Shown piece by piece: positions 15,434 through 49,359 of a stretch of DNA of 64,000 bases; positions within the stretch are counted from its first letter, which is position 1, and every line of letters begins with the position of its first letter. Source of the DNA: Parundibacterium terreum (GTDB taxonomy: Bacteria; Pseudomonadota; Gammaproteobacteria; Burkholderiales; Burkholderiaceae_D). Both the position numbers and the translations under genes were made by a program. Location: positions 62,001 through 126,000 of the forward strand of contig NZ_BMED01000007.1 in assembly GCF_014636315.1 (NCBI RefSeq). Direction: 5' to 3'. The notes beneath the pieces were generated by a model, which searched no databases, was not told the origin of the DNA, and worked only from the letters and a program-made list of their open reading frames with translations.

Positions 15434-15442
15434 GATTCTTGA

Positions 15443-16975: not shown

Positions 16976-16977
16976 GA

Positions 16978-18231
16978 CTAGGCCTTTGCTGGAGATAAGC
17001 CGGGTAAATGGGAAGGGGGCTGCTGGTTGCGGGCCGGTGCAGACGGATCCAGCAGCGCATCCACCCGCGACAGGTTGGCCGTCCAGTTGAATTTCGCGAT
17101 GACCCTGGCCCTTGCTGCCTGTTCCATGGCCGTGTCCCGGAGTGCCAGCAATTGCAATACCTGGCTGGCAAACTGCTGGGCATCGTCGGCCAGCATCAGT
17201 TCCTTGCCTGGTGCGGCAGCTATACCTTCCAGCGCTTGTGCGGATACAACGACAGCCTTGGCCATTGCCATCGCTTCCAGTACCTTGTTTTGTATTCCGC
17301 GAGCGATGCGTAATGGAGCGACCGCAACATGGGCATGCGCCAGGTAAGGACGTACATCCGGCACCGAGCCGGTAACCCGCACGCCTGGCAATTTCGCCAA
17401 TTCCTTCACCTGGTCGGACGGGCGGGCGCCGACGATGTAAAACACGGCATTGGGGTTCTGCTTCAGGATAGCCGGCATCACTTCATCGGCAAACCACTGC
17501 ACTGCATCCACGTTAGGCCAGTAATCCATCGCGCCGGTGAAAGCGATTGCCGTCTCACCGTCTGTGTAGGGATTGGCGTGCGCCAATTCGGGAGTGAAAT
17601 AGTCGGTATCTACGCCGTTACTGAAAAAATCGATCTTGGCCGAGCTTTCGGGAGCAAGTTGCCTGAACAGTGCAGCTTCTGCCTCCGAGACGAACAGCGA
17701 AGCGTCGCACTCTCGCGCCAGCCGGCGCTCATAGCTGAGCAGCTGGTTGCCCTCGCGCCGGTACAGCCAGCTCATGGGCCAGATTTTCTTGTCTGCGTAC
17801 TGCAGCCATTTATCGGAATCGACATCGACGAAATCGACAACCCTGCGCGCGCCGTCTATATGCTCGACGAACTGTGCCATCGCAGACGAAAAGACAACAA
17901 TGCGCTTGATTCCATGCTGCCGGATTGTCGTGTCGATCCAGGTTTGCAGACCCGCGTTGCGATAATAGTCTAGCGACAGCGGCCGGTTCCCCAGCAGGGC
18001 TCCCAGGCTGCGGATCTTGGCCGTACGCGGATCCAGCCTGGCGATATGGGTGTCGGCACAAAGCTCCTTGACCTTGTCTACATATTGCCAGTCATTGTCG
18101 TCATCGATGAAAGTACCCAGATGCACACGGTATTGCTGAGCCAGGTGTTTCAACAGATGGTAGGAGCGTATCTTGTCTCCCTTATTGGGAGGAAAAGGTA
18201 TGCGATGGACCAGCAATAGCAGATCTTCCAT
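16978..18231 (-). CDS. XrtA-system glycosyltransferase (TIGR03087 type)
   Basis: The 417-residue GT-B enzyme starts MEDLLLLVHRIPFPPNKGDK, the signature of the first XrtA-associated sugar transferase family. It continues with RSYHLLKHLA, DVDSDKWLQYA, FTGAMDYWPNVDAVQWF and the donor-site region IARGIQNKVLEAMAMAKAVV. The frame is open to 18300, but that part overlaps the FemAB gene. ATG 18231 lies 2 nt after the FemAB stop codon (TAG CC ATG) and gives the family N-terminus. It is cytoplasmic and belongs to the central operon. Confidence 0.92.
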   Translation of the reverse strand: MEDLLLLVHRIPFPPNKGDKIRSYHLLKHLAQQYRVHLGTFIDDDNDWQYVDKVKELCADTHIARLDPRTAKIRSLGALLGNRPLSLDYYRNAGLQTWIDTTIRQHGIKRIVVFSSAMAQFVEHIDGARRVVDFVDVDSDKWLQYADKKIWPMSWLYRREGNQLLSYERRLARECDASLFVSEAEAALFRQLAPESSAKIDFFSNGVDTDYFTPELAHANPYTDGETAIAFTGAMDYWPNVDAVQWFADEVMPAILKQNPNAVFYIVGARPSDQVKELAKLPGVRVTGSVPDVRPYLAHAHVAVAPLRIARGIQNKVLEAMAMAKAVVVSAQALEGIAAAPGKELMLADDAQQFASQVLQLLALRDTAMEQAARARVIAKFNWTANLSRVDALLDPSAPARNQQPPSHLPGLSPAKA

Positions 18232-18233
18232 GG

Positions 18234-19319
18234 CTATCCCAGGTTCTTGACGATATGCGGGCCGATCAGATTGGCCAGGGATAAGGGCATGCGCTGCCAC
18301 ATCTTGATAAAAAGCTGGTACTTGGGGTTCAGCGGATTATTGTCCGGCACTGCCGTGGACTTATGCAATTGATAGGCATAGTGCAGCGCTTGCGGCTCGA
18401 AGCCCCAGTTCTTTTTAAAATCGAAGGCGCCGGTGCCCAGTTTGCTGCGGCCAAAGTCGAATACCTTGTAGCCACGCGCGCAGGCGCGCCGCATCAATTC
18501 CCAATACATGAAATCATTACCGGCCAGGTCGCGTGCTTCGGCGGTACCGCCGCCGTAATAGGGCAGCACTTCATCGCGGAAATAGAAACTCATCACGCTG
18601 GCGATCACGCGATCATCCTTGACGATGGTCATTACTTCACAATCGGGGCCGAAAGTCTCTTTCAGCAGTCGGAAGAATTTCTTTGAAAAAACCGGAGTGC
18701 CCAGCCTGTGCACGCTGGTGGAATAGGCATGGAAAAAACGGTCCACGCCTTCATCCAGCTCGCTTTTCAATTCAAACTTGATCCCCTTGCGCACCATTGC
18801 GCGCTGCTTGCGCGGAATGGCCAGCATATTCTTTTCTTCGTCAGGATCGATTTCCTTGCGGAAGGTGACGTACAACTCCTTGGTATGCCATCCCTCCTGG
18901 GCCTGGGCCTTGATGTTCCGGTATTCCAGATGACCCACTCCCAATTTGCCTGCCAGTGCCTGCGCTTGCTGATTCAAGGCAGCGCGCGCTGCCTCGGATT
19001 CGCTGGCGACACCGCCATACACGCAAAACGGCAGCGAGCTCAGCGAATGGCCGAACAAGGCGCTCTTGATTTCTGCCAGAGGCAGTACGCCGACGATTTT
19101 TCCTTCCGATTCGGCATAATAAAACCAGGTTTTATGGCCGAATGCGCGTTCTATCACCGGCTGCCAGCCGGCCCGGTGGAAGAAAGTAGCTTCAGGGCAC
19201 TCCTGCACAAACTGATCCCATCTTGCCGCATCTTGCGGCTGCATCAGTTTGATCGAGAGTGGAGAGCTGGCGGTGGGGGATTGCAACTGGGCTGCAGAGG
19301 CCTCAACGATAGAATTCAT
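18234..19319 (-). CDS. FemAB family XrtA/PEP-CTERM system-associated protein
   Basis: The 361-residue protein has the FemAB/GNAT-like fold: WDQFVQECPEATFFHRAGW near residues 33-51, VGVLPLAEIKSALFGHSLSS, and a C-terminal YYGGGTAEARDLAGNDFMYW with FDFGRSKLGTGAFDFKKNWG. FemAB relatives transfer aminoacyl groups; this subfamily (TIGR03019, recalled) is restricted to XrtA loci and its acceptor is not known to me. ATG 19319 overlaps the upstream TGA (ATGA), and GAAGAAG precedes it. The longer frame to 19355 lies inside the deacetylase gene and is rejected. Confidence 0.92.
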   Translation of the reverse strand: MNSIVEASAAQLQSPTASSPLSIKLMQPQDAARWDQFVQECPEATFFHRAGWQPVIERAFGHKTWFYYAESEGKIVGVLPLAEIKSALFGHSLSSLPFCVYGGVASESEAARAALNQQAQALAGKLGVGHLEYRNIKAQAQEGWHTKELYVTFRKEIDPDEEKNMLAIPRKQRAMVRKGIKFELKSELDEGVDRFFHAYSTSVHRLGTPVFSKKFFRLLKETFGPDCEVMTIVKDDRVIASVMSFYFRDEVLPYYGGGTAEARDLAGNDFMYWELMRRACARGYKVFDFGRSKLGTGAFDFKKNWGFEPQALHYAYQLHKSTAVPDNNPLNPKYQLFIKMWQRMPLSLANLIGPHIVKNLG

Positions 19320-20209
19320 GGCTTCTTCAGGAAGATTTTGTCCATGCGGTCCCATTGGAAGTCGCGGGTCAGCGCCTTCAGGCGGTTTTCCGTACGGGAC
19401 AGGTTAACGTAATGGCGGAAACGGGTTTTCATGCCGATATTCTGTTGCCGCGGCTGCTCTGGATCGACTTCCCAAGGATGGAAATAGAAGATTCCGGATT
19501 GCTTGTCCTGCTGGTTGACTCTTTGCAGCAGCCAGCGCGATAACTGGTAAGGGAACAGGCGGAAGAAGCCGCCGCCACCGGCAGGCAGGTTCCTGTCCAT
19601 GATGCGCACGGTGGTAATCGGTATTTCCAGCAAGCCGTCTTCGCCGTTGGGATAAAACGCAAAGCGCGGCGCATCCGGCATGCCGTAATGGTCGTGCTTG
19701 ACCGGGTAAATGCTGGAACTGTAGCGGTAGCCGGCCTCCAGCAGCGAGTCCAGCGCCCACAGGTTTTGTTTGCTGATGGAAAAGCTGGGCGCACGGTAGC
19801 CGAGTACCTGCTGGCCGCCTATGTCTTCCAGGATGCGCTTGCTGCTGCTGATATCCTGCATGAACTCTTGCGCATTCTGATCGGACGCACGCAAATGCCC
19901 ATAACCGTGGCTGGCCAATTCATGGCCGCCGTCCACAATGCGCTTGACCATCGCCGGATAGCGTTCTGCGATCCAGCCCAGCGTGAAGAAGGTGGCCTTG
20001 ACTTGCGATGCATCGAGTACGCCCAGTATTAGGTCGATATTGCGTTCCACGCGGCAGGACAGCGTAGGCCAGCTTTCGCGCGAGATATGGTCGGCAAAAG
20101 CCGAAACCTGGAAGTAATCTTCCACGTCTATCGTCATTGCATTGCGTATCCCCTTGGCTGGGACAGGCGCCGCACTGGTTTGCGGGAAAGATGGTGTAGC
20201 CTGGGACAT
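19316..20209 (-). CDS. XrtA-system polysaccharide deacetylase with DUF3473
   Basis: The 297-residue protein contains the NodB-type core: MTIDVEDYFQVSAFAD near residues 25-40 (metal-binding Asp), KATFFTLGWIAERYP and ASHGYGHLRAS (His motif), then LGYRAPSFSIS. A C-terminal DUF3473 segment follows, including GGGFFRLFPYQLSRW and FYFHPWEVDP. This pairing defines the XrtA-associated deacetylase (TIGR03006, recalled). It probably deacetylates the glycan in or just outside the cytoplasmic membrane. There is no signal peptide. Its start is 31 bp after the ATPase stop, and it is coupled to the FemAB gene. Confidence 0.92.
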   Translation of the reverse strand: MSQATPSFPQTSAAPVPAKGIRNAMTIDVEDYFQVSAFADHISRESWPTLSCRVERNIDLILGVLDASQVKATFFTLGWIAERYPAMVKRIVDGGHELASHGYGHLRASDQNAQEFMQDISSSKRILEDIGGQQVLGYRAPSFSISKQNLWALDSLLEAGYRYSSSIYPVKHDHYGMPDAPRFAFYPNGEDGLLEIPITTVRIMDRNLPAGGGGFFRLFPYQLSRWLLQRVNQQDKQSGIFYFHPWEVDPEQPRQQNIGMKTRFRHYVNLSRTENRLKALTRDFQWDRMDKIFLKKP

Positions 20210-20240
20210 GATCAGCTCTTCACTATTATCTGGCGGGGCA

Positions 20241-21257
20241 TCAATTCTCTTTTTCCGAGGAACTGCCCATCTTCGCAGACGGCAGCATTTTTTTCAGCGC
20301 ATCAATCACTGAAATAATGGATCGTTCCATTTTCGCCATCCTGTCATCCATGCTTTCCAGGCTGACATTATTCAATTCTTTCAAGCCCATCGCAAAATTG
20401 GCCGCCTGCTGCGCTTCCGTGTCGGGGGCGGCGCTTTCAGGGATATCGAATTCTTGCTTGATGTCCGCGATTACCTGTTTGACTTCGGTATCGCCGAAAG
20501 CATGCAATTCTTCCAGGTAGCCCATCAGGAACAGCCGGTCGCACAGGGAATTGATTTTTCGCGGGATGCCGCCGGTGTAGTCATAAATCGCGGCAAAGGC
20601 TTCCTTGCTGATGGTGGGGTCGTCTTTCCAGCCCACGGTATGCAGCCTGTGCTCTATGTATGACTGGGTCTCTACCAGGTCCAGCGGGCCCAAATGATAG
20701 CTGGCGATTACCCTCTGCAGCAATTGCTGCATGTCGGCACTCAGCAAGGTGCGGCGAAATTCCGGCTGGCCCAGCAAAAAGGTTTGCAGCAGGGACTTGT
20801 CCGCAGTCTGGAAATTGGACAGCATGCGCAATTCTTCCACTGCGCGCGGCGTCAGATTTTGCGCTTCATCGACCACCAGCAATGCACGCTTGCCCTGCTT
20901 GTCGCATTGGCGGAGAAATTGTTCCAGCCGGGTCAGCAGCGATGCCTTGGTTGCGTCCTCATATTCCAGACCGAATGCTGAGGCGACCAGCCGCAGGATA
21001 TCGTCGGAACCGACATGCGTATTAACGATCTGTGCGGCCAGGATGTTTTCGGATTCCAGTTCGCAAAACAGATTGCGCATCAGCGTGGTCTTCCCTGCGC
21101 CGACTTCGCCCGTAATGACGATAAAACCTTCACCCTGGGAAATGCCGTACTCCAGGTACGCCATCGCTCGCTTATGCCCCTTGCTGCCGAAGAAAAAGCG
21201 CGGATCGGGTTTTAATTGAAATGGTTTCGCGGTGAAACCGTAATAGGATTCATACAT
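20241..21257 (-). CDS. XrtA-associated AAA ATPase (ExeA/GspA-like)
   Basis: The 338-residue protein begins MYESYYGFTAKPFQLKPDPR and has Walker A GEVGAGKTTLM near residue 50, Walker B LLVVDEAQNL near 128, and a sensor region typical of ExeA/GspA secretion ATPases. The C-terminal 60 residues are acidic and coiled. The family (TIGR03015, recalled) is invariant in XrtA loci; a role in energising or ordering envelope assembly is assumed, not shown. It lies 15 bp downstream of the outer-membrane protein gene. Confidence 0.92.
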   Translation of the reverse strand: MYESYYGFTAKPFQLKPDPRFFFGSKGHKRAMAYLEYGISQGEGFIVITGEVGAGKTTLMRNLFCELESENILAAQIVNTHVGSDDILRLVASAFGLEYEDATKASLLTRLEQFLRQCDKQGKRALLVVDEAQNLTPRAVEELRMLSNFQTADKSLLQTFLLGQPEFRRTLLSADMQQLLQRVIASYHLGPLDLVETQSYIEHRLHTVGWKDDPTISKEAFAAIYDYTGGIPRKINSLCDRLFLMGYLEELHAFGDTEVKQVIADIKQEFDIPESAAPDTEAQQAANFAMGLKELNNVSLESMDDRMAKMERSIISVIDALKKMLPSAKMGSSSEKEN

Positions 21258-21272
21258 CTGTTGCCTGACTTA

Positions 21273-22835
21273 TCAGAAACCTAGTAAGAGGAAAACAGAC
21301 AACGCGTTTTCCCGGAAATCGCTTACGCTTAAGCTGGAATCTTTTTGATTGCGCCGGTATTCCAGCGTTGCCTTCAGTTTAGGCTGTAAATCCCTGCTTA
21401 ACGCAGCCCTGAACATCTTGTTGTTATCCCTGACACCCGTCGAATACGAGTCTGCACGATTGTAGCCCAAGGTAAAATTGGCCGAGGTACGAGGAGAAAA
21501 TACCAGATTCCAGATAACATTTGCGCCAGTTTGCTTGGTGCGATCAGACAACGCAGGATCGGCCGACGATACAGGTGTCAGGTCGGTTGACTGTGCATCG
21601 CGCTTGGTACTAAACAGACTGAGCAGCAGGGTATTTTGCGCACCGGTAATTGCCACTGATCCTTGCAGGCTTTTTTGCAGGAATACGCGATTGGAAAAGG
21701 TATTGACCGATTGCGCCAAAGAAGAAGGCAAGCCGTAGCTCTTGATAAAAGCATCGACCAGTTGCTGGCGCGCAGCAGGGTCGGGAACGCTGGTTTGCCA
21801 TAGCTGGTTCAGGAAGGCACTCGTATTGACGCTGCCTGGTACCAGGAATTGCTGCCGGGTCGTTGTAATATCTTCGTGGTAGCCGAGGCTCCAAGTGGTG
21901 GCGCGAGTACGTTGAGCCGCGGTCAGACTATATGTCGAGCCGTAAAAACGGTGGCCGGCATTGAAGACCAGACTGGTTCTCTCTGTAGGTTCCCAGTCGA
22001 AGCCGGCAGACCAGTAGGCACCCGCTGGCTTCTTGCCGTCGATGGCGACATAGCTGTTTTTTTCGTAACCGCCGGTGCCCGTCAGGCTGAAACGCGGCGA
22101 CAGATAATAGCCTGCAGTGACGCCGGTAGTTTCCGCCTCTATCGTATTGATCGACTTGTCAAATTTCGTTTTCAGATCATCATAGGTAAATCCCCATTTC
22201 ACTTTTTGAAATGCGGTGCCACTATTGATGTTCATGGAAATGTGATCACCAGTACTGTTCACGGTGCCGCCGGAGCTGCTGGAGACAGAATCCCGGGTGT
22301 AGCGCAATTCGGCCGATGCGGTACGATCAAACGTATGGCGCAGGTATGGCGACGCGCTATAGGTCCTTACTTCAACACGGTTATTGGACAGGTTCAGATT
22401 GTTCGTTGCTTCAGACGCGAAGGGACTTTGATTCTGCTGACTGATGTTCGCCTTGCCGTCTAAAAAAAAAAGATCCTTCATCAATTCTGAGTTGGCATCC
22501 GCATTCAGTAGATGATTCGTCTTTAAGCCGTTTGCATCGCCTGTGTAATACAGGTTCTGCATCTGATAGTTGACTCTCATCTTTAATTGCGCACCGGTCG
22601 CAGTGAAATCCACGCCTGGACTTGCTTGGGTGATGAAAGAGCTTTGCTTCTGGCTGTCGGGAACCAGTTTGACGTTATCTGTATAGGTTTCCGTGAGGTT
22701 GACGGTAGGTGAAATTTTCCACTCTGCCGCATGCGCACCTGTTGCAAGACCGATCGCCAGCGGCGACAAGCTTGCTGCAACCCAAAAGGAAAGAGGCCGA
22801 ACCTTGCACTTGACGTGTGCGGCTCCGTGCTTCAT
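21273..22835 (-). CDS. TIGR03016 family PEP-CTERM system-associated outer membrane protein
   Basis: The 520-residue protein has a signal peptide (hydrophobic PLSFWVAASLSPLAIGLATG, cleavage after AHA at about residue 33). After it come alternating amphipathic strands ending in ALSVFLLLGF, a typical terminal beta-strand with final Phe. It is thus a predicted outer-membrane beta-barrel of the XrtA set, possibly the exit port for the polymer. ATG 22835 is chosen because GGAAGG lies 8 nt upstream. Earlier in-frame starts (22859, 22871, 22883) run into the kinase gene, though ATG 22859 would give an 8-nt overlap with it. Confidence 0.9.
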   Translation of the reverse strand: MKHGAAHVKCKVRPLSFWVAASLSPLAIGLATGAHAAEWKISPTVNLTETYTDNVKLVPDSQKQSSFITQASPGVDFTATGAQLKMRVNYQMQNLYYTGDANGLKTNHLLNADANSELMKDLFFLDGKANISQQNQSPFASEATNNLNLSNNRVEVRTYSASPYLRHTFDRTASAELRYTRDSVSSSSGGTVNSTGDHISMNINSGTAFQKVKWGFTYDDLKTKFDKSINTIEAETTGVTAGYYLSPRFSLTGTGGYEKNSYVAIDGKKPAGAYWSAGFDWEPTERTSLVFNAGHRFYGSTYSLTAAQRTRATTWSLGYHEDITTTRQQFLVPGSVNTSAFLNQLWQTSVPDPAARQQLVDAFIKSYGLPSSLAQSVNTFSNRVFLQKSLQGSVAITGAQNTLLLSLFSTKRDAQSTDLTPVSSADPALSDRTKQTGANVIWNLVFSPRTSANFTLGYNRADSYSTGVRDNNKMFRAALSRDLQPKLKATLEYRRNQKDSSLSVSDFRENALSVFLLLGF

Positions 22836-22851
22836 GTGCGCGACCTTCCGT

Positions 22852-23892
22852 TTAACCATAGTAACGGCCATAGTAATCCCCACCGGCGAAGGTCTTGGCC
22901 TTGTTGTAGACCAGATTCACGTTAGTGTGTGATTTCAACTGACGCAGTACTTCCTTGACGACATGCTGGGTCGTTGCTTCGGCTTCGACAACCAGCACGA
23001 TCTGGCCCATCTGATTGGCCAGGACTCGGGCTTCTGTCGTCAACAGCAGAGGAGGGGAATCAAAAATAACGATACGGTCGGGATAGCGGTTGGCAATTTC
23101 ATCCAGCAGGCTGCTCATCGCCTGGCTGGCCAGTAATTCGGTTGCACGCTTATGGCTACGGCCGGCGGGCAGTATGCTCAGCGTATCGATATTGGTCTTC
23201 AACATTGCGTCTGCCAGGTCCAGCTTGTCATCCAGCAGCACGTCCATCAAGCCGATAGCTGAACTGGTATCTGCCGGATCCAGGCGCAGATAGCGGGGAA
23301 CGGAAGGGCGGGCCACATCGGCATCCACCAGCAGAACAGTGTGATCCAGTTCCATCGCGATACTGATCGCGAGATTGACTGCGCAGAACGTCTTTCCTTC
23401 GCCTGGCAGCGAGCTGGCGACCATGATCAGGTTGCCGTGATGCTTGCTGGCGCCGCCATTCTTGGCAAACGCCTTTTCTATCAGTGGGCGCTTGATCAGC
23501 CTGAATTCTTCTGCGATGACGGTTCTTTCGGCGTCCGGAGTGACCATGCCCAATTGATGTAGCTGGGCAAGATCAATCTCTATCTTTCTTGACGTTCCTT
23601 TTTTTACCTGCGTTGCTGCGGGAGCAGGTATCCGGTGATCAGGAATGGCCGCTGCAACGGCAGCAGGAGGTACCGGCGCAGCTTGTTGCTGGACGGGAGC
23701 CGCCGCTGCAGGCGTTGCTATTTCAGCGGGTGCAGTAGCAACAGGTGCGGCAGGATTTTGTACGGCAGCAACTGCCTGTTCTTCTGTCGCCGCAGTTTTG
23801 ATCTCGATTGCAGGTTCAGCGGCCGGGCTTGCGGCTCCGGCTGCTCCTTTGCTCTGATCAAGTCTACCAGCTGCTTTTTCAATAATGCTCAC
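22852..23892 (-). CDS. XrtA-associated tyrosine autokinase (BY-kinase)
   Basis: The 346-residue cytoplasmic BY-kinase has Walker A SSLPGEGKTFCAVNLA near residue 160, Walker A' VLLVDADVARP and Walker B VIFDSPPLL, with a C-terminal tyrosine cluster DYYGRYYG for autophosphorylation. A proline/alanine-rich linker (residues ~20-100) precedes the kinase domain. GTG 23892 is proposed as start because GGAG lies 5 nt upstream and it gives the family N-terminus V/M-SIIEKAAGRLDQ; ATG 23955 would add 21 unlike residues. It partners the chain-length protein upstream (93 bp away) to control polymer length and export, as Wzc/Wzz pairs do. Confidence 0.92.
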   Translation of the reverse strand: MSIIEKAAGRLDQSKGAAGAASPAAEPAIEIKTAATEEQAVAAVQNPAAPVATAPAEIATPAAAAPVQQQAAPVPPAAVAAAIPDHRIPAPAATQVKKGTSRKIEIDLAQLHQLGMVTPDAERTVIAEEFRLIKRPLIEKAFAKNGGASKHHGNLIMVASSLPGEGKTFCAVNLAISIAMELDHTVLLVDADVARPSVPRYLRLDPADTSSAIGLMDVLLDDKLDLADAMLKTNIDTLSILPAGRSHKRATELLASQAMSSLLDEIANRYPDRIVIFDSPPLLLTTEARVLANQMGQIVLVVEAEATTQHVVKEVLRQLKSHTNVNLVYNKAKTFAGGDYYGRYYG

Positions 23893-23985
23893 GCTAACTC
23901 CAAAAATATTGATTGCTTGTCGCCAATTACCCCTCTGAAACCCGTTTGACATCATCCATGGACAAATCGGGCCTGGGCAAGAACA

Positions 23986-25509
23986 TTACTTCAGATACAT
24001 GGTCGCCATTACGCCAACATAGAAGAAGAGCAGTACGAAGGAAGATAGGCCGAATGCGTACAGGCTCCTCTTCCTTCTGGTTTTTTCGCCTTCAGTCCAG
24101 TTCATGGACACCGTACCGAGAATCGGCAAACCGGTTGCTTCCAGCAAATCGATATGGCTGAGGAAGGTTGGCCTGATTTTGCTCATCAGTACAGCTCCCA
24201 GCATACCTACGATCAATGCTGCGACAAATACAATAGAGAACAGCCGCAGGCGATTAGGTCCTACCGGTGTCAATGGCATCGTCGGCGGATCGATGACCCT
24301 GAAGGTCATCATTTCTGTGGTTGCACTCAGATCGCCGGACAATTTGGCAGATTCACGACTGGCGACCAGTTTTTCGTAGTTTTCTTTGTTGATCAGGTAA
24401 TCGCGATTCAACTGAGCCAATTGGGATTCAATTTCAGGCGCAGCAACACTCAGTGCCTTGAAGCGGGCGCTACGCGAATTGTATTCTTCCACACGGGCAC
24501 GCATTGAGGCGACCCGGGCTTCCGCTGCAGACAAGGAAATCTTCAATTGCTGGAACAGGGGATTGGCGGCCATCGTCGTTTCGGACATTGGCTTCCTGGT
24601 TTTCGCTTCTTCCTGTTTGCGCGCTTCCAATTGCGCCAGCAGGCGCTTGGTGGAAACGATGTCCGGATGCTGCTCCGTGTACTGCAAACGCAAGGAATCC
24701 AGATTCTTGGACAAGGACTGGATGCGCTCATCCAATTCCGGATTCGGCAAAACCACTGCATCCTCCGCTTTTTGCGGCATTTCTACTCCCTGGATCTGCC
24801 TTTTGATTGCATCCCTGGCCTGTTCCGCTTCGGACAATTCCAGTTTGGCCGAATTCAGGCTTTCTGTGATGTCCAGCAACTTGCTGCCGGAATCGCTGCC
24901 CTGACGCGGCAGCATCATCATGTTTTTCAGCTTGAAGTCTTTCAGGGCGTTTTCTGCCGTGGCCAGTTTTTCTTCATAGATCTTGATCTGGCTGTCGATG
25001 AAGACGATGGCTTTGGCGGAGTCTTGTTTCTTGTCTCCAAAACTGCCTTCAACAAAAATGGTGAGCAAGGCCTGGACAACATCCTTGGCCAGCTTGGGAT
25101 TTTCATCGTTGTAGGAAATTGTGTAGATATCGTTTTGAACCGTGCCGTTTATCTTGATAGAGGCGATCAGGGTCTCTATCATTTTCTCCCTGTCCTTGCC
25201 GGTGTTGGCGGCGATGTCCAGGTCGACCATGCGCATTACGCGTTCGACGTTAGGCCTGCTCAGCAGAGTGCGGCTCATGATGGAAACTTGCTGTTCCACA
25301 TTGGGGATACTGGTCATGCCCGCAAGCAATGGTTTTAAGATCGTTTGCGTGTCGACAAACACCCTGGCTGAAGATTGGTAATTATCCGGGAGCTTATAGA
25401 CGACAATAAACCCTACGGCGGCAACCAGCCAGGCTATCGTGACAGCATACCAGCGATATTTCCACCCACCCCTCAATAGGGATTGTAGCTGCGTAACCAG
25501 TTCCTCCAT
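23986..25509 (-). CDS. XrtA-system polysaccharide chain-length determinant (Wzz-like)
   Basis: This 507-residue inner-membrane protein has an N-terminal membrane segment (residues ~20-45) and a large periplasmic coiled-coil region. A second membrane segment (LFSIVFVAALIVGMLGAVL, near 415) is followed by a short cytoplasmic part and a further hydrophobic C-terminal helix, the arrangement of the TIGR03007 family (recalled). ATG 25509 (MEELVTQLQ) has GGAGAG 9 nt upstream and gives the expected start; the open frame to 25545 is not used. It is the first gene of the central XrtA operon, which runs without large gaps to 12380. Confidence 0.93.
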   Translation of the reverse strand: MEELVTQLQSLLRGGWKYRWYAVTIAWLVAAVGFIVVYKLPDNYQSSARVFVDTQTILKPLLAGMTSIPNVEQQVSIMSRTLLSRPNVERVMRMVDLDIAANTGKDREKMIETLIASIKINGTVQNDIYTISYNDENPKLAKDVVQALLTIFVEGSFGDKKQDSAKAIVFIDSQIKIYEEKLATAENALKDFKLKNMMMLPRQGSDSGSKLLDITESLNSAKLELSEAEQARDAIKRQIQGVEMPQKAEDAVVLPNPELDERIQSLSKNLDSLRLQYTEQHPDIVSTKRLLAQLEARKQEEAKTRKPMSETTMAANPLFQQLKISLSAAEARVASMRARVEEYNSRSARFKALSVAAPEIESQLAQLNRDYLINKENYEKLVASRESAKLSGDLSATTEMMTFRVIDPPTMPLTPVGPNRLRLFSIVFVAALIVGMLGAVLMSKIRPTFLSHIDLLEATGLPILGTVSMNWTEGEKTRRKRSLYAFGLSSFVLLFFYVGVMATMYLK

Positions 25510-25605
25510 CTTGTCAAACTCTCCATATATGGTAATTAACGGCATCTATTCCAAGCTATAAGTTACCAGCTTATCTGCTAGATGGGCACGTTTATTTAGC
25601 GAGCT

Positions 25606-41139: not shown

Positions 41140-41622
41140 CTATTTGGCCGGAGTTGCGGGCGCGACGATGTCGCGCTGCATGGGAGCCAGCAAGGCAACT
41201 AGTTTGTTTTGCGTCGCGAAAGGGATATTGTTCTTGTCCATCGCCATTTGCAAATCCTCGACCAGCGCATTGAATTGCAGATTGTTTATGCCCAATTTGC
41301 CGTGCACCAGTTTCATGTCATCGCCGGTATATTTGCATGGCCCGCCGCTGAGTACGCAAAACTGCTCTTTCAGCAGCTTTGCCAGGTTCTTCATATTGGT
41401 TTCCTTGAACTGTTCCTTGATCTTGGCATCCTGCAGTATCAGCACAATCAGGTCGTCGACAATATTGCTGATCCCCTGTTCTGCGCCCAGGCCCTGATAC
41501 AGCTTGTCGTTACCTGCCTGTGCAAAACCGGGAGCAGGGAAAGAAAAGAGCAGGCCGAGCGCTAGACTGAGCATCATCATGCGCAAAGGCAGCTTATTGA
41601 AAATGGTCATAGCGGTTTTCAT
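41140..41622 (-). CDS. Exported group 1 truncated haemoglobin
   Basis: The 160-residue protein has a signal peptide (residues ~10-36, ending GFAQA) followed by a 2-on-2 globin: LYQGLGAEQGISNIVDDLIV at the start of the fold and the proximal His107 in LVHGKLGI. Cys89 and Cys96 (FCVLSGGPC) could form a disulfide. Truncated haemoglobins bind O2, NO or CO. Export to the periplasm is unusual for the family in general but seems typical of this genomic setting. It is 20 bp downstream of the DUF3034 gene and last in that minus-strand unit. Confidence 0.9.
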   Translation of the reverse strand: MKTAMTIFNKLPLRMMMLSLALGLLFSFPAPGFAQAGNDKLYQGLGAEQGISNIVDDLIVLILQDAKIKEQFKETNMKNLAKLLKEQFCVLSGGPCKYTGDDMKLVHGKLGINNLQFNALVEDLQMAMDKNNIPFATQNKLVALLAPMQRDIVAPATPAK

Positions 41623-41642
41623 ATGAGTTGGGCCTTGCTTGT

Positions 41643-42548
41643 CTAGTTGCCGATCTGCACGGACAGGTACCAGCCACGTTGCGTGGTCGGGTTGAATATG
41701 GTGATATCGCCCAGTGTTGCATAGGCGGCAGTGACTGATACGTTCTTGGTGGGGAAGTAAGCCAGGAAGACGTCGTAGTAATCCTTTTCATTGTCCACGC
41801 TCAGATTGCGCGGCTTCATCCTGTATTCCACGCCGCCGACCAGCTTGCGAGTAAACATATACGCTGCCGAAGCTTCAAACATGGGCTTGTAGTTATCGTG
41901 CTTGTCGCCGCCAAAGCCGAGTATGCCCATCTGGTTGGCCTTCGTCATGCGCACGGTGCCGTTCAGCAGCAGGCTCTGGTCCAGAAACAGCTTGGTTGCG
42001 GCGACGTAATAATCGATGCCGTGGTCATCGGTCGCGCCTAACTGCTTGACATTGGTTACTCCCAGGGCTCCCAGGCCGCCTATGCCGTTATTGCGCTTGT
42101 ACATCGCACCGATGGCGATTTGCGGCATCAGCTTGTCCTGGTCTATCACGGCGTCGCCGCTTAGCTTCAGTTTGATGCCGATGATGTCCTGCTTGATATC
42201 CAGCTGGTTCAGCGGGGCTTTGCTGCCGGTGAACTCTTGCTTTGCCACAGAAATCTCTACCCGGTCGGCGATGCCCAGCGATAACCCGTAGGTTTTTAAA
42301 GTGTAATCCTGGGTGCTGACCTGGGTGTAATGGGCGTTGCCGCCGTAACTGTCCGAGCTGCCATAGCCGGTAATCAGCGCCCACGGCGTGATACCGCCGC
42401 CGCCGGCACCTTCCAATTGGCTGACGCCGCCGGTGGCAGTCAATTTGCCCATATCGGGCAAAGACAGGGACTCTGCCGAAGCCGGTGCGCCCGAGCACAA
42501 AGCCATGAGCGTCAAAGTTGTTGGGACGATTGCTGTTCTATATGACAT
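41643..42548 (-). CDS. DUF3034 family outer-membrane beta-barrel protein
   Basis: The 301-residue protein has a signal peptide (cleavage after APASA, ~residue 25), then GGVSQLEGAGGGGITPWALI and alternating strands ending GWYLSVQIGN, as in DUF3034. It is probably a small outer-membrane barrel of unknown cargo. A candidate promoter lies upstream (42609-42638). It is paired with the truncated haemoglobin gene. Confidence 0.87.
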   Translation of the reverse strand: MSYRTAIVPTTLTLMALCSGAPASAESLSLPDMGKLTATGGVSQLEGAGGGGITPWALITGYGSSDSYGGNAHYTQVSTQDYTLKTYGLSLGIADRVEISVAKQEFTGSKAPLNQLDIKQDIIGIKLKLSGDAVIDQDKLMPQIAIGAMYKRNNGIGGLGALGVTNVKQLGATDDHGIDYYVAATKLFLDQSLLLNGTVRMTKANQMGILGFGGDKHDNYKPMFEASAAYMFTRKLVGGVEYRMKPRNLSVDNEKDYYDVFLAYFPTKNVSVTAAYATLGDITIFNPTTQRGWYLSVQIGN

Positions 42549-42939
42549 TTTTTTGTTCTGGACAGATAAAAAAACGCGTAGTGGGGGAGCATATTAGTTT
42601 TATTCTAATTGATACTTTATTCCAATAGCTATAAGCAAGGGCATACTGAAAAATATGGTAAAAATACCACTCTTCATCGCTATAAAATGCAGGTACACTC
42701 TAACAAAAAAGTCCTGCAGGAAAGTTATCCAAGGACAAGTTTTTATGTGAAATATTGTTGAGTATGATTGAGTACAAGTAAGTACGAGCAAGGAAATCAC
42801 AAGCAGACCCTGGTCTTCGTCGTCCGTCATCCTCTATATTTATAAAAAGGAGAGAGGATTTGCTGTTCTCTATAAGAGTCCGTCAAAAAACGGCCTTGTC
42901 CACCTCACATCAGAATTTGCGCCTGGGAAAAGCGGCAGT
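42549..42939. other. Divergent intergenic region, DUF3034 to sensory diguanylate cyclase
   Basis: This 391-bp AT-rich region contains the minus-strand promoter candidate at 42609-42638. Near 42757-42786 is a cluster of short degenerate direct repeats (GAGTATGATTGAGTACAAGTAAGTACGA). No gene is seen; a 76-codon minus-strand frame is not protein-like. No convincing plus-strand promoter was found. Confidence 0.5.
42609..42638 (-). promoter_or_regulatory. Candidate sigma-70 promoter for DUF3034-haemoglobin unit
   Basis: On the minus strand TTGCTT (42638-42633) and TATCAA (42614-42609) are separated by 18 bp. The start point would be near 42602, about 54 nt before ATG 42548. The match is moderate. 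Confidence 0.4.
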
Positions 42940-44670
42940 ATGAAAAAAACTTCCTTACGTCGCGAGCTACTGATACCGGTCACTGTACTTGTCATCGGCG
43001 TGTCGGTTGCGATCGCCTGGGTCTCGATGAAGGCCGGAACCGATGCAGTACAGACGCTGACGCAAAGGGTGCTGACCGACATGGTCAACCGCATCAGCAA
43101 TGCGACCGAGCGCCATCTGGAAGGGGCCTTGATCGCGCTGGAATCGATCTCGCCCAACCCCAAGACTGTCCCCAGGGAGCAGGTATTTTCCGACGACATG
43201 CATACGCTGGAGGTCAACCTGTGGGCTGCCAGCGGCCTGTTCATGAACGTGAATAATTACGTCTACTACGGCGGCTCGGACGGGCGCTTTGTCGGCGTGT
43301 ATCGCATATCCAGCGATTTTGTCCAGTTGTTCTGGCGTCTTCCGGGTGAGGCGCAGCGCGAGGTATATAACGTCAACAGCCCCGGTGATCGATCGAAGAT
43401 GATGCGAACGGACGGCTATGATCCGCGTAAACGGCCGTGGTACCGGATTGCCTCGGTGACCGATAAACCAGTGTGGTCGCCGATCTACAATAATTTCACG
43501 TCGGACTTCCCTACCATCACGCTGGCCAAGGCGGTATTCAGGAAAGACCATACGCTGTCAGGCGTCGTTGCTACCGATGTGACCTTGAAAGTGTTGTCCG
43601 ACTTTTTAAAGACACTGGAAATCAGCAAAAACAGTGTTGCCTATATCCTCGATGCGGACGGCCATATCGTTGCGACCTCGGGGCAGGAATCTCCTGTAAA
43701 GACCGTCGCCGGCATGCCGGTGCATATGACGGCGACAGAAATGAAAACCTCGTTGATCAGCGAAACCTATAAGAAGAGTTTTGAGTGGCAAAGGCAGATT
43801 CTGCAGAAAAGCGCGGATGTGCCGCCCACGCGGCAACTGGAACTCAGCGTCGGCACCGTTGACGTCGCCGTGTCTTCGCTGGGGAGCAAGCAGGGACTTA
43901 ACTGGCTGACCGTGGTTGCGGTGCCGCGCTCGGACTTCATGAGCGGCATCAACCAGGGCTTTGTGCAGAGTGCCATGATCGCCCTGGCCTGTATTATTTT
44001 TGCACTGACCATAGGGCTGGCAATGGTGGAGCGGGTAGTCAGGGATATCCGCAAGCTGACCAATGCGGCGGAGAAATTCGGTAACGGGGAACCGCTACCG
44101 GTGATGGATATACAGCGCGGCGATGAAATCGGTACGCTGGCGCAGACCTTTGTCGAGATGGAAAACAAGCTGCGCTTCGACAAGCTGACCCAGGTTGCCA
44201 ACCGCGAATCGCTGTTCGCGCAAATCAACTACCTGCGCAAGCAGGCCGAACGCAACGCCAGGGATGTGGATGCGTTTACCCTGCTGTTCGTTGATCTGGA
44301 CCGCTTCAAATTCATCAATGACAATTACGGCCATGATGCCGGCGACAAGGTGCTGGTGATTATTGCCGAACGCCTGAAGGCGGCGATACGCGATACCGAT
44401 ACAGTGGCACGCTACGGCGGCGACGAGTTCGTGCTGTTGCTGAAAGAAACCAAGAGCTCGATAGACATCAATAATATGGTGGAGAAAATCTGCGCGCTGG
44501 TGGAAGAGCCGATCTCACTGGATCAAACGATAGTCAGTGTCGGCGTCTCCATAGGCTGGGCCAGTTTCCCCGATGACGGCGACGACTATGTCAGGCTGAT
44601 CAAGATTGCAGACGGGCGTATGTACAAGCGCAAGCGTGACCGCAAATCCAGCCAGATGCATCTGGTTTGA
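42940..44670 (+). CDS. Sensory diguanylate cyclase (Cache-HAMP-GGDEF)
   Basis: The 576-residue protein has an N-terminal membrane helix (residues ~10-30) and a periplasmic double-Cache-like sensor with DGYDPRKRPWYRIA near 165-178. A second helix (QSAMIALACIIFALTIGLAM) is followed by a HAMP domain and a GGDEF domain with an intact GGDEF at 493-497. The inhibitory I-site RDTD lies five residues upstream. It should make c-di-GMP in response to a periplasmic small molecule. It is encoded on the plus strand inside an otherwise minus-strand cluster, convergent with the GGDEF/EAL gene 59 bp away. Confidence 0.93.
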   Translation: MKKTSLRRELLIPVTVLVIGVSVAIAWVSMKAGTDAVQTLTQRVLTDMVNRISNATERHLEGALIALESISPNPKTVPREQVFSDDMHTLEVNLWAASGLFMNVNNYVYYGGSDGRFVGVYRISSDFVQLFWRLPGEAQREVYNVNSPGDRSKMMRTDGYDPRKRPWYRIASVTDKPVWSPIYNNFTSDFPTITLAKAVFRKDHTLSGVVATDVTLKVLSDFLKTLEISKNSVAYILDADGHIVATSGQESPVKTVAGMPVHMTATEMKTSLISETYKKSFEWQRQILQKSADVPPTRQLELSVGTVDVAVSSLGSKQGLNWLTVVAVPRSDFMSGINQGFVQSAMIALACIIFALTIGLAMVERVVRDIRKLTNAAEKFGNGEPLPVMDIQRGDEIGTLAQTFVEMENKLRFDKLTQVANRESLFAQINYLRKQAERNARDVDAFTLLFVDLDRFKFINDNYGHDAGDKVLVIIAERLKAAIRDTDTVARYGGDEFVLLLKETKSSIDINNMVEKICALVEEPISLDQTIVSVGVSIGWASFPDDGDDYVRLIKIADGRMYKRKRDRKSSQMHLV

Positions 44671-44729
44671 GCTTCTGCGGCAGGTGCTCAAGGCAGGACC
44701 GTGCAGCGGTGGCGGTGCAGTAACAGTAA

Positions 44730-47105
44730 TCAGGCCGCTGCTGAATACTCCGGCGGCACCCATTTCATTACCCATTCCTGCAGGTGCTCTGCGGGCATGG
44801 GTTTGCTGATGTAATAGCCCTGGGCTTGGTCGCAGCCCATTTCCCTCAGCAACTGCATCACGTCCTTGTTTTCCACGCCTTCGGCGACGACCCTCAGGCC
44901 CATGTTGTGGCCCAGGTCGATGGTGGACCTGACTATCTTCGCATCATCCAGATCCTGCTCCATTTTCAGTACGAAGGATTTGTCTATCTTCAGTTCATCC
45001 ACCGGCAGGCTCTTCAGATAGGCCAGTGATGAATAGCCGGTGCCGAAATCGTCAATCGACAAATCCACGCCCATCACATGCAGGCGCTCCAGGGTTTGCT
45101 GCGCCCGCACCGGATCATCCATGATGGCGCTTTCAGTGATTTCGAGGCAGAAGGACTCGGGGCTGATCTTGTGGCGAGCCAGGATATCGGCAAATTTGTT
45201 CGGCAGGTCCTGATCCAGCAGATCGCGGGTAGACAGGTTGACCGACATTTTCAGGTGCAGGCCGCGTGCCTCCCATTCACTGCACATGGTGGCCGCCTGC
45301 TCCAGTACCCAGCGGGTCAGCAGCCGTATGAAGCCGGTTTGCTCTGCGAAAGGGATGAACTGGTCGGGGAAAATGAAACCACGCTCAGGATGTATCCAGC
45401 GCACCAGAGCCTCTACCGCAATCACCCTGCCGGTACCTAGCTCCACCTTTGGCTGTACATACAGGCGGAAGGCGTTGTGATCTAGCGCGGCCCGGAGTTC
45501 GCTCAGTAGCGACAGGCTTTGCTGGCTGGACTTGTCGATCTCGGGAATATAAGTGACTGCGCCGCTATTTCTTTGCTTGGCCGCATACATTGCCACTTCT
45601 GCATGGCTGAGCAGGGTTTCAGCGCTGGTGGCGTTTTCCGGATAACCGGCGATGCCTATGCCGGCGCCGAGATCCACGGTCTGGTCTTCGATGGAGATCG
45701 GTTTTTCCAGCGATTGCAGGATACGTGCAGCCAGTTCCTGCGCTGCCGCCAGGCTGGAATTGGGCAACAGGATCGCAAATTCGTCGCCACCGAGGCGCGC
45801 CGGCTTGGTTGCGCCCTGGCCGAGTTCGGCACTGAGCCTGACTGCGACCTGGGTCAGCAGCAGATCGCCGAAGCTATGTCCCATGACGTCATTGACATGC
45901 TTGAAGCGATCCAGATCCATCATTAATACATAACAGGATTCTTCCTTAGATTCCGCATGCTTGATGGCGTCGTTCAGCATGTTGACGAAGCGCGCCCGGT
46001 TCGGCAGATTGGTCAGCGTATCCCAGTACGCGAGGCGCAGGATTTCTTTCTCACGATTGGCAATGCCGTCGCGCATGCTGATGAAGGTGCGCGCCAGTTC
46101 CCCTATTTCATCCTGGCCCTTGACGTCTATGGTGGCGGAGTAATCGCCGGCGCCCAGCTTCTTCGCTGTTTCCGCCAGTTGCCGCATGGGGCCGGTAATG
46201 CGCCTGGCGGAGAAGACACTGATGATGATCGCCACCAGCACGCCCAAGCCTGTCAGCACCAGCAGGCTCAGCTTCAGGTTCTCATAAGGGGCGATGGCTT
46301 CATTGATGGATCTTTGCAATACCAGTACCGTGGTCTGGTTCTGGCGCGGATTTTGTGCCAGCTTCAGCACGCGCGCGCTGTAATTATCGTTGCCAATATC
46401 CAGGTCTTGCAGAAAAAAGGCCTTGTCCAGCGTCGTCGGCAATTGCTTGGCCAGGTCGCCTGCCTCTGCCGGCGCCAGTGTGGAGACGCTGGAACTCCAT
46501 GGGCCGCCGTCGCTGCTGGTCAGCAGCGATACCTGCATCGACGATAGTTCGCGCATGTCGGCGACGATCTTTTTATCGATGGGAATTGCCATCACGACCC
46601 AGCCTATTGTTACCGGTGCTTTCAGCGGCACGACAACCAGCTGGTAGGGGTGGCTCTCAACAATGGTGGTACTGGATGTAGCGCCGCCATTCTGTTCCGC
46701 CTGGTCTATCATCGTCGGGATGGATTGCTGCAGGCTGGCTGCCAATGCAGCGTTGGTCGAAGCGGTAATGCTCTTGTCCAGACCTATCAGCACCGTCAGC
46801 GTCGCGCCTATCCGTTCACCGTGGTTGGACAAAGCAGATTCTATGGTGTCGCGGTCATTGCTGCTGACTGCAGTCAGGAAGCCGAACTCGGAAGCCAGCA
46901 CCTTGGCACCGAAGATCAGGCGTTGCGCGTTTTGTTCCAGCAGATTGCCGAACTGGCGCTCGCCGATTTTCAGATCGGCCTGGATGGAGGCGCGCGCATT
47001 GGCCTGGATTTCGTGGCGTATGGTGAAATAGCCGGCCAGCTGAACGGCCAGTATCAGGACGATGAATAGGGCGACGACACGGCTTTCCAGGCTATGGAAG
47101 CGCAT
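44730..47105 (-). CDS. Membrane sensor GGDEF/EAL protein
   Basis: The 791-residue protein has a membrane helix at the N-terminus, a ~250-residue periplasmic sensor, and a second helix (LSLLVLTGLGVLVAIIISVF) followed by HAMP. A GGDEF domain (RLGGDEFAILL, about residue 437) and a C-terminal EAL domain complete it. The EAL catalytic set is complete: VEALVRW, VNLS, EITES, DDFGTGYSSL, IDKSF, AEGVEN and QGYYISKP, so it is a likely c-di-GMP phosphodiesterase. The GGDEF lacks an RxxD I-site, so cyclase or GTP-sensing activity is open. It follows the MauL-like gene by 101 bp. Confidence 0.93.
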   Translation of the reverse strand: MRFHSLESRVVALFIVLILAVQLAGYFTIRHEIQANARASIQADLKIGERQFGNLLEQNAQRLIFGAKVLASEFGFLTAVSSNDRDTIESALSNHGERIGATLTVLIGLDKSITASTNAALAASLQQSIPTMIDQAEQNGGATSSTTIVESHPYQLVVVPLKAPVTIGWVVMAIPIDKKIVADMRELSSMQVSLLTSSDGGPWSSSVSTLAPAEAGDLAKQLPTTLDKAFFLQDLDIGNDNYSARVLKLAQNPRQNQTTVLVLQRSINEAIAPYENLKLSLLVLTGLGVLVAIIISVFSARRITGPMRQLAETAKKLGAGDYSATIDVKGQDEIGELARTFISMRDGIANREKEILRLAYWDTLTNLPNRARFVNMLNDAIKHAESKEESCYVLMMDLDRFKHVNDVMGHSFGDLLLTQVAVRLSAELGQGATKPARLGGDEFAILLPNSSLAAAQELAARILQSLEKPISIEDQTVDLGAGIGIAGYPENATSAETLLSHAEVAMYAAKQRNSGAVTYIPEIDKSSQQSLSLLSELRAALDHNAFRLYVQPKVELGTGRVIAVEALVRWIHPERGFIFPDQFIPFAEQTGFIRLLTRWVLEQAATMCSEWEARGLHLKMSVNLSTRDLLDQDLPNKFADILARHKISPESFCLEITESAIMDDPVRAQQTLERLHVMGVDLSIDDFGTGYSSLAYLKSLPVDELKIDKSFVLKMEQDLDDAKIVRSTIDLGHNMGLRVVAEGVENKDVMQLLREMGCDQAQGYYISKPMPAEHLQEWVMKWVPPEYSAAA

Positions 47106-47206
47106 AGGCCGTTCCTGAAAATTGCTGCGTATGCCGTGCAGGCGAGTGGCAGCATTTAAGCAAAGTTGCGTGCATTTCTGAGCCGGAATCTGGAGACGTA
47201 AGTTTG

Positions 47207-47812
47207 CTAGCTGGCTTTGTAATTCAGTTTAACAGTAATTGTCGCATCATCTTTATAGCTAATGCTCTGTTCGTTGACAGGAATGCCTGCAGCCTGTTTG
47301 AAATGCCAGGTTTTCAGCGCATATTTGCCTGCCGTAATGGAGTTGATCCTGGCCCGGCCGCTGGCATCCGTCTTTGCGAAATACGGGGTATCGACCACCT
47401 GGATATAGGCAATCATCTGGTCATGAATATTGCAGCCTACGACTACCGTGCCTGGCTTGTCGAAGAGTATGGGCTTGGTGGGAGTGCCCGCATACAGCTT
47501 GATATCGAAGGGCTTGGGCGCAGAAAAAGAATAGGCGTGGTGGCGGACAGTATCATTATTCGGGAAACTAATCGCCGTACCGGTCTGGACCACAGTCACC
47601 AGAGGGATGAACTTTTTGTCCTTTTGCTCGACATCCACTTGCGGCGGGGACTTGACCAGCGGAGCCGTTCCTTCGGCGTACACAACGGCATCTGCAACCG
47701 GCTGACCCGCGCTGTCGACTACCTGCACCGTCAGGGTGGCAAAGGCGCTGCTCGCCACCATGCCATTTAATAAAATAACAACGGCGGTGTGCATTAGACG
47801 TGGTCTGCTCAT
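47207..47812 (-). CDS. MauL-like periplasmic cupredoxin (methylamine utilization protein family)
   Basis: The 201-residue protein has a signal peptide (cleavage after SAFA, ~residue 25). It has a plastocyanin-like fold with a type 1 copper site pattern: His91/His92 in VRHHAYSF and Cys127, His130, Met133 in GCNIHDQM. The last 60 residues form a small beta domain (AKTDASGRARINSITAGKYA). It would be a periplasmic copper electron carrier or sensor. The name methylamine utilization comes from family annotation; no other mau genes are present. It precedes the GGDEF/EAL gene on the same strand. Confidence 0.85.
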   Translation of the reverse strand: MSRPRLMHTAVVILLNGMVASSAFATLTVQVVDSAGQPVADAVVYAEGTAPLVKSPPQVDVEQKDKKFIPLVTVVQTGTAISFPNNDTVRHHAYSFSAPKPFDIKLYAGTPTKPILFDKPGTVVVGCNIHDQMIAYIQVVDTPYFAKTDASGRARINSITAGKYALKTWHFKQAAGIPVNEQSISYKDDATITVKLNYKAS

Positions 47813-48303: not shown

Positions 48304-49359
48304 ATGGAATCAATCATTAAGCACCTTGTGGAAATTACCGGTCATCGTGACCATGATCTCCTCAATATTTCTGTGATTTCTGCATTAAGCGAACTGACGC
48401 ATGCGGAGTATGCGCGCGCGCTGGATATTGTTGCCGTTGGAAAACAAATCTTTGTGCAACCGCAAATCACGATCAAGAATGGCAAGGTGCTTACCGTCGA
48501 TGAACATCTGGTCGCGGTGCAGACCGGCGAGGCGATTAGCCAGTATCCTGCCCTGGAGCAGGGAATCACCCAGCATTCCAATCTGATTGAGAGCCTGACT
48601 GAAGACGGCAAGCGCATAGTCTGGCTGCCCATCTGGATCAACGACAAGGTCAGCACTTGCCTGGAAATCATCAATCCCGCGTCGTATACAAAAAATACGA
48701 TGGAGGCGATGGAAGGCATATTAATCGTTTACCGCAATTTCCAGAACCTGCTGGATTACAGCGAACGCGACTCGCTGACCGGCTTGCTGAACCGTAAAAC
48801 CTTCGACGATAATTTTTCCAAAGTATTGCGTGCGACATCGCAGCAAAGCAGCAATGAAGGTAGCGAAGTGGATGGCGGCGGTGTTGAGCGCCGCCAGCAT
48901 GAGCCGGAAAAGCAGCACTGGTTGGCGGTGCTGGATATTGACCATTTCAAGCGTGTGAACGACCAGTTCGGCCATCTGTACGGCGACGAGGTGCTGATCC
49001 TGATCGCTAACCTGCTGCGTTCCTCTTTCCGCCCTACTGACCGCCTGTTCCGCTTCGGCGGCGAAGAATTCGTGATCTTGCTGCGCTCCACCACGCAGGA
49101 AGACGCGCAGCATATCTTTGACCGTTTCCGTACCAATGTGGAGCAGCACCACTTTCCGCAAGTAGGCAAGGTGACCGTCAGTGTCGGTTTTGCCCGCATC
49201 GATCCGTTTGAGCCGGCGGTTGCCATCATGGGCCGCGCCGACCAGGCGCTGTATTTTGCCAAGAGCAATGGCCGCAACCGCACCTGTTATTACGACAGTC
49301 TGGTGCAGAGCGGCGATCTGCACACCGAGCGCTCCAACGATACCGCAGAGTTCTTTTAA
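48304..49359 (+). CDS. Cytoplasmic diguanylate cyclase (GAF-like + GGDEF)
   Basis: The 351-residue protein has no membrane segment. Residues ~1-145 form a GAF-like sensory domain (IIKHLVEITGHRDHDLLNIS, then VWLPIWINDKVSTCLEI). A GGDEF domain follows, with DSLTGLLNRKTFDDNF at its start, active-site GGEEF at 252-256, and an I-site RPTD five residues before. It should be an active, product-inhibited cyclase. No clear Shine-Dalgarno precedes the ATG. It is the third c-di-GMP enzyme in 6.5 kb. Confidence 0.92.
   Translation: MESIIKHLVEITGHRDHDLLNISVISALSELTHAEYARALDIVAVGKQIFVQPQITIKNGKVLTVDEHLVAVQTGEAISQYPALEQGITQHSNLIESLTEDGKRIVWLPIWINDKVSTCLEIINPASYTKNTMEAMEGILIVYRNFQNLLDYSERDSLTGLLNRKTFDDNFSKVLRATSQQSSNEGSEVDGGGVERRQHEPEKQHWLAVLDIDHFKRVNDQFGHLYGDEVLILIANLLRSSFRPTDRLFRFGGEEFVILLRSTTQEDAQHIFDRFRTNVEQHHFPQVGKVTVSVGFARIDPFEPAVAIMGRADQALYFAKSNGRNRTCYYDSLVQSGDLHTERSNDTAEFF

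Follow-up and report, generated by a model that had tools for sequence, protein, structure and literature searches.

The DNA analysed here, called the window in what follows, is a stretch of 64,000 nucleotides from Parundibacterium terreum (contig NZ_BMED01000007.1, positions 62,001 to 126,000 of the forward strand). Genes were called by a simple rule on open reading frames, and the families of neighbouring genes in related loci were checked against Pfam in a few members only. The locus and its surroundings contain the following features.

41140-41622, minus strand: globin gene (Bac_globin, PF01152, E 8e-11)
41643-42548, minus strand: gene of a predicted DUF3034 barrel (PF11231, E 6e-99)
42940-44670, plus strand: inserted dCache_1-HAMP-GGDEF gene (Pfam), between the barrel and receptor genes
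44730-47105, minus strand: receptor gene, dCache_3-HAMP-GGDEF-EAL, 791 aa (Pfam, all four domains)
47207-47812, minus strand: cupredoxin (CUP) gene, 201 aa (assigned by profile, model and ligands; no copper family of Pfam)
48304-49359, plus strand: GGDEF gene (Pfam), divergent from the cupredoxin gene
12380-25545: EPS locus of the exosortase EpsH type, with glycosyltransferases, an AAA ATPase, Wzz and an asparagine synthase

The globin, barrel, receptor and cupredoxin genes all lie on the minus strand, as the original prediction had it; however, they do not form an unbroken one-strand set, for the plus-strand gene at 42940-44670 interrupts them, and that prediction had omitted this gene as well as the plus-strand GGDEF gene at 48304-49359. 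The EPS locus upstream, in which a biofilm output of the system had been seen, is real (EpsH, glycosyltransferases, Wzz), but nothing was found that ties it to the four genes, and a link between the two is conjecture.

The gene order cupredoxin, receptor, inserted GGDEF gene is common to the window and four Undibacterium loci (L071, L074, L075 and L080), which among the loci searched are the only ones holding relatives of the inserted gene's sensor. These four loci carry a second DUF3034-globin set, three of them with an extra cupredoxin, and they also have a gene for a protein of 383-399 aa, which in L071 is a TPR protein. A GGDEF gene at the position of 48304-49359 is present in Undibacterium too and stands outside the wider conserved unit. 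Downstream in the window, an ABC-F gene, which we take to be EttA, shows 84.7% identity over 1656 bases to its counterpart in the Undibacterium locus L072. The DUF3034 profile has one match in the window genome.

Products of the conserved genes

The exported protein of 47207-47812 met no copper family in a Pfam scan. A profile search of PDB gave NirK (E 6e-6), 5fc9, which is a type 1 copper protein (E 8e-5), and, as weak matches, pseudoazurin and amicyanin; the structural model of the protein (pLDDT 91.8) is matched by Foldseek to NirK, pseudoazurin, plastocyanin and amicyanin; and the predicted type 1 copper ligands H91, C127, H130 and M133 are kept in 64 of 64 aligned relatives. Because profile, model and fold search agree, we assign it as a type 1 cupredoxin, which upholds the original prediction on this point. 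It shares the fold and the His-Cys-His-Met ligand set with amicyanin, pseudoazurin and the cupredoxin domain of NirK, and the C-x2-H-x2-M spacing is that of amicyanin. Unlike these, it is joined to a CarboxypepD_reg-like C-terminal part (below the Pfam cut-off) and its gene is linked to a receptor. The protein has a signal peptide, and a signal-like segment was seen by a crude test in 110 of the 119 cupredoxins collected. As to a reading as MauL of methylamine utilisation, PF06433 and PF02975 (methylamine dehydrogenase) matched neither the window genome (G000) nor the control genomes, the search thus being one without a positive control.

The globin is above the Pfam cut-off for PF01152, and its best PDB matches are HbN structures (profile E 8e-26 for 1idr and 1e-26 for 2gl3), with which it shares the fold family and the proximal His (His107 in the window), kept in 121 of 121 globins. 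By its sequence it is an exported group 1 truncated haemoglobin, in keeping with the signal-peptide-bearing truncated haemoglobin expected before; 128 of 132 globins have a signal-like segment by the crude test. It differs from HbN in being exported, in its Cys pair (Cys89/Cys96, kept in 118/121) and in having neither Tyr at B10 nor Gln at E11. In fact, B10 is Tyr in 0/121 globins (Ile59 in the window) and E11 is Leu in 110, Phe in 9 and Ile in 2 of them, Gln in none (Leu84 in the window), and the distal pocket is therefore predicted to be apolar. In HbN the two polar residues hold bound O2, and from work on HbN an apolar distal pocket argues against tight O2 binding; these polar residues are not obligatory in all group 1 truncated haemoglobins. 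The closest match in PDB, 2gl3, is itself a variant, and both B10 Tyr and E11 Gln are missing from its sequence as printed.

DUF3034 is known as a domain family, and the window member spans the full length of the profile (331 bits). Its model is a 12-strand barrel (pLDDT 81.5) in which the conserved glycine-rich N-terminal segment has low confidence, and this prediction agrees with the outer-membrane barrel proposed earlier; a signal-like segment was detected by the crude test in 115 of 131 DUF3034 proteins. The model matches many barrels (FapF, OmpG, NanC), and therefore the fold gives no function. Sequence matches to Ika8 (E 1.5e-5 over 39 residues) and Ika4 (E 0.008) in PDB were judged spurious. 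No function of DUF3034 was found in the literature searched. A figure legend on retrons (PMC12548924) mentions the name; this mention is perhaps a slip, since the legend itself also speaks of DUF3037. What the window adds to the family as known is its place in a probable sensing unit.

The receptor has the order TM, periplasmic dCache_3, TM, HAMP, GGDEF, EAL, and both its GGDEF and its EAL motifs are intact, as was claimed from the sequence at the outset. All 47 receptors compared keep DD[F/Y]G as well as the E, L and R of ExLxR, and 41 of the 47 have a strict EAL; the other EAL catalytic positions were viewed in the 12 commonest of the listed forms. A strict GGDE[F/Y] is present in 18 of the 47 receptors, and 29 depart from it. 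Since the EAL motifs are kept throughout and the strict GGDE[F/Y] only in this minority, the output of the window receptor is best read as mainly c-di-GMP hydrolysis. In the inserted gene at 42940-44670 both RxxD and GGDEF are visible, so that its product is probably a diguanylate cyclase, which would counteract the EAL receptor.

Co-occurrence across genomes

The statement that the four genes recur together in Burkholderiales holds, and the recurrence extends past this order, to alphaproteobacteria and to other gammaproteobacteria. Of 398 Pseudomonadota genomes in an even draw, 39 have DUF3034. A strong globin match is present in 39/39 of these versus 2/359 of the others (Fisher p 5e-52) and a strong cupredoxin match in 38/39 versus 14/359 (p 3e-40), which is non-random and far above chance, with the proviso that the p values ignore shared descent and that kinship inflates the counts. 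The cut-offs for strong matches, E up to 1e-40 for the globin (the next weaker score being 6e-26) and up to 1e-30 for the cupredoxin, were chosen after the scores were known; at looser limits the globin profile is met in 103 and the cupredoxin profile in 70 of the 398 genomes. The globin stands beside DUF3034 in all 39 loci, the window included. All four families share one locus in 30 of the 39, and the rest have DUF3034 and globin alone (5), with the cupredoxin (3) or with the receptor (1).

A further set of loci, set B (L071-L150), comprises the top 80 out of at least 584 relatives and is weighted towards Oxalobacteraceae. Neither cupredoxin nor sensor is present in 49 of these best 80 loci, mostly from Oxalobacteraceae, and 10 of the 49 are perhaps cut because they are under 15 kb. 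In three alphaproteobacterial loci (L144, L149 and L150) DUF3034 and globin are followed by small stand-alone cupredoxins and a HAMP-PAS-histidine kinase; this kinase is without the receptor's sensor, and in two of the three a four-helix-bundle sensor lies just below threshold. Within 7 kb of DUF3034, clusters of ECF sigma factors occur in 27/119 loci and of RskA-type anti-sigma factors in 18/119, each in 1/39 of the evenly drawn loci, the assignment of these clusters being checked with Pfam in three proteins.

Pairing of cupredoxin and sensor with exchanged outputs

The 119 cupredoxins fall into sets A (33), B (35), C (24) and D (27). CUP matches weaker than E 1e-21 were excluded from set C, and set D is made up of 23 loci from a class-wide search plus 4 left from a phylum-wide search. 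The sensor model was built from the window and sets A to C, and set D had no part in it. The sensor family of the receptor is encoded within 2.5 kb of 93 of the 119 cupredoxins, on the same strand in 88 of the 93, with 30/33 pairs in set A, 23/35 in B, 16/24 in C and 24/27 in D. The sensor profile (maximum E 0.001) has a single match in the window genome of 6.37 Mb, at this locus, and chance adjacency is for that reason very unlikely; the Pfam family dCache_3 has two matches in the same genome.

The output joined to the sensor changes from locus to locus. It is GGDEF-EAL in 67 of the 93 pairs, a class III cyclase in 6 (L167, L191, L200, L203, L205, L214), a Ser/Thr kinase in 7 (L185, L207, L209-L213) and a histidine kinase in 3 (L187, L198, L216), while 8 receptors have no output domain (L120, L125, L127, L128, L132, L136, L137, L139); in the remaining two pairs the receptor is cut by the contig end (L147) or apparently broken (L199). 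The eight sensor-only receptors end at the second membrane helix or at a HAMP stub, and at E up to 1e-4 neither EAL nor GGDEF is matched anywhere in their loci. The pairing in 93 of 119 cases with exchanged outputs is the new finding of this study. The retention of copper protein and sensor alongside a changing intracellular output points to the copper protein as the bearer of the signal.

Distances among the cupredoxins follow those among the sensors (r 0.83, against a maximum of 0.19 in 1000 permutations), a correlation that shared descent inflates. The cupredoxin tree, estimated by a quick method and with many weak forks, requires 8 output changes, and its well-supported branches force 3 changes for the EAL label; the sensor tree requires 5.

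The barrel varies as well. DUF3034 is absent from the locus in 33 of the 40 cupredoxin-sensor pairs of sets C and D, and 17 cupredoxin clusters, none of which has DUF3034, hold instead an unnamed family whose members have 403-447 aa and signal peptides (L163, L165, L166, L168-L173, L176-L178, L186, L198, L203, L204, L206). Four members were scanned and gave no Pfam match above the cut-off. Judging from the signal peptides, the aromatic last residue in 11 of the 17 members and one sub-threshold Porin_4 match among the four scanned, this family is perhaps an outer-membrane barrel that replaces DUF3034. In five genomes (G126, G213, G216, G340, G348) DUF3034 is accompanied by a separate locus with the unnamed family. 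Haem proteins also recur, as the globin or, in L187, as a di-haem peroxidase of the MauG type. Cupredoxin and sensor are thus most often together while output and barrel vary, which is the pattern of an input module.

Some observations count against the coupling. Among the 119 cupredoxins 26 are without a sensor within 2.5 kb, four of the 26 being the small ones of L144, L149 and L150; in a few of these sensor-less loci, L164, L175 and L208 for example, a barrel was not seen by eye either. Moreover, the sensor domain has no invariant Cys or His among the 47 receptors, the best being His95 in 31/47.

Upstream regions

The 350 bases before the approximate start were scanned for 119 CUP and 131 DUF3034 genes, with mononucleotide shuffles for comparison. 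Patterns of FNR/Anr, NsrR, NorR, Dnr, CueR, OxyR, Fur and some further regulators show no clear excess in either group. The strict FNR pattern is found upstream of 0/131 DUF3034 genes and the relaxed one upstream of 2/131, versus 0.3 in shuffles. For the cupredoxins, an ECF-like pattern is found in 1/119 (0.1 in shuffles) and a loose sigma54-like pattern in 10/119 (2.1 in shuffles). The best de novo dyads occur in 6/119 and 9/131 regions, against 2 and 4 in one shuffle, the sequences being related. Scans for promoters and terminators gave no more than in shuffles.

Discussion

The locus likely encodes a sensing unit for which c-di-GMP is one of several outputs. Starting from the gene pairing, the swapping of output and barrel, and the conserved metal ligands and EAL motifs, we propose, with a probability of about 0.55, a trans-envelope sensing unit around a cupredoxin-coupled receptor. 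In this proposal the exported type 1 copper protein would act in the periplasm as an input partner dedicated to the dCache_3-HAMP receptor of the inner membrane. The barrel, together with the exported haem globin in the DUF3034 version, would provide or modulate the signal on the outer-membrane side. As the likely signal we see the state of the cupredoxin, in redox terms or in copper loading, which a reaction at globin and barrel would set; by physical coupling, the dCache_3 domain would read this state, and HAMP would relay it to the output domain. The output of the window receptor would mainly be c-di-GMP hydrolysis, with the inserted probable diguanylate cyclase acting in the opposite way. 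The physical coupling, the redox state as signal and the barrel and globin as its source are the parts that we infer. The eight sensor-only proteins count against the proposal, since a receptor without output is odd for signalling unless an unknown partner exists. The redox relay to the GGDEF/EAL protein put forward in the original prediction survives in part: the genomic context points to the copper protein as feeding the receptor, but c-di-GMP is not the defining output, because relatives join the same cupredoxin and sensor to a cyclase, to kinases or to nothing.

More tentatively, and with clearly less confidence, one may imagine a general class of cupredoxin-coupled receptors in which the redox or loading state of the copper protein is itself the ligand of dCache_3. 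The type 1 copper protein would then be diffusible and receive electrons or copper from barrel and haem protein, and evolution would have adapted this one input to the hydrolysis of c-di-GMP, the synthesis of cyclic nucleotides, phosphorylation on Ser/Thr or two-component signalling.

The genes may instead serve redox or copper handling in the envelope, with barrel, globin and cupredoxin doing the work, the receptor merely regulating it or being co-regulated, and the cupredoxin carrying electrons or copper but no signal. This we regard as rather unlikely, although several results point to it: the 49 loci of set B, itself the top 80 out of at least 584 relatives, in which DUF3034 (48 with globin) does without cupredoxin and sensor, the genes for ECF sigma factors (27 of 119 loci) and RskA-type anti-sigma factors (18 of 119) at distances up to 7 kb, the MauG-type peroxidase beside CUP in L187 and perhaps, by eye, in L217, and the sensor-only receptors. 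On the other side, CUP tracks the sensor more than it tracks globin or barrel, as the 33 of 40 pairs without DUF3034 in sets C and D indicate, and in two genomes (G225 and G389) the CUP-sensor pair sits apart from the DUF3034-globin genes of the same genome. Iron or haem acquisition, where the barrel would move a ligand in or out and the metalloproteins would report on iron or haem, seems very unlikely to us. Next to the cupredoxin and second barrel of L163 and L166 there are genes for a PKHD-type 2OG-Fe(II) oxygenase, which was scanned in L163, and for a TonB-dependent receptor, which was scanned in L166, and TonB-dependent receptor and DUF4331 genes lie near DUF3034-globin in L083; such neighbours are, however, confined to a small minority of loci, and no exact-consensus Fur site was found in the 119 and 131 upstream regions.

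The original prediction held that the haem and copper proteins sense or scavenge NO or O2 and so set c-di-GMP and biofilm output. A haem globin with its proximal His in 121/121, an EAL output in 67 of 93 pairs and the EPS locus upstream would suit it, but we consider it improbable. Sites of the NO/O2 regulators FNR, NsrR, NorR and Dnr are without clear upstream enrichment, which leaves NO/O2 sensing unsupported; in addition, a look by eye through the listed neighbour clusters showed no denitrification gene, the globin distal pocket is apolar in 121/121, and the output is often other than c-di-GMP. That the neighbours are conserved by descent alone and have no joint function is scarcely credible: the sampled genomes do share ancestry, yet gene order, strands, output and barrel all vary while CUP and sensor stay paired.

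The preferred reading, the cupredoxin as input partner of the receptor, has parallels in known systems. LuxP-LuxQ, TorT-TorS and YfiR-YfiN each consist of an exported protein and an inner-membrane receptor with neighbouring genes, and the receptor reads the protein by its periplasmic domain. Here too the gene of an exported protein lies beside that of a receptor with a periplasmic sensor, an arrangement found for 93 of the 119 cupredoxins, and the reading of the one by the other would be similar. Those systems differ from the present one, where the receptor is partnered by a type 1 copper protein, an outer-membrane barrel is often part of the unit, and the same input occurs with four kinds of output domain or with none. 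No description of this unit was found in the open-licence literature searched, nor a role for DUF3034, for exported group 1 globins with an apolar pocket or for the MauL-like cupredoxin next to signalling genes, and our proposal gives these three families a testable one. Fusions of cytochrome and globin are reported from cable bacteria (PMC11976967). If the cupredoxin is indeed the input, blue copper proteins would gain a role in signalling, as signal carriers besides electron carriers, and the natural output swaps would offer ready reporters for c-di-GMP, cyclic nucleotide and phosphorylation.

Other genes near DUF3034

Several further observations were made in the related loci. A DUF4331-type gene lies near DUF3034-globin in six of them (L083, L087, L093, L096, L101, L113); it was scanned with Pfam in L083, where it occurs with a TonB-dependent receptor and an ECF sigma gene. 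Genes of one family lie near DUF3034 in ten loci (L082, L085, L086, L092, L120, L123, L127, L134, L136, L146), and the L127 member, the one scanned, is Lipoprotein_15 (PF03640). A search of plasmids yielded 13 records. In the Undibacterium loci L071, L074 and L080 the genes stand in tandem as DUF3034-globin-DUF3034-globin-cupredoxin, and the window has a single set.
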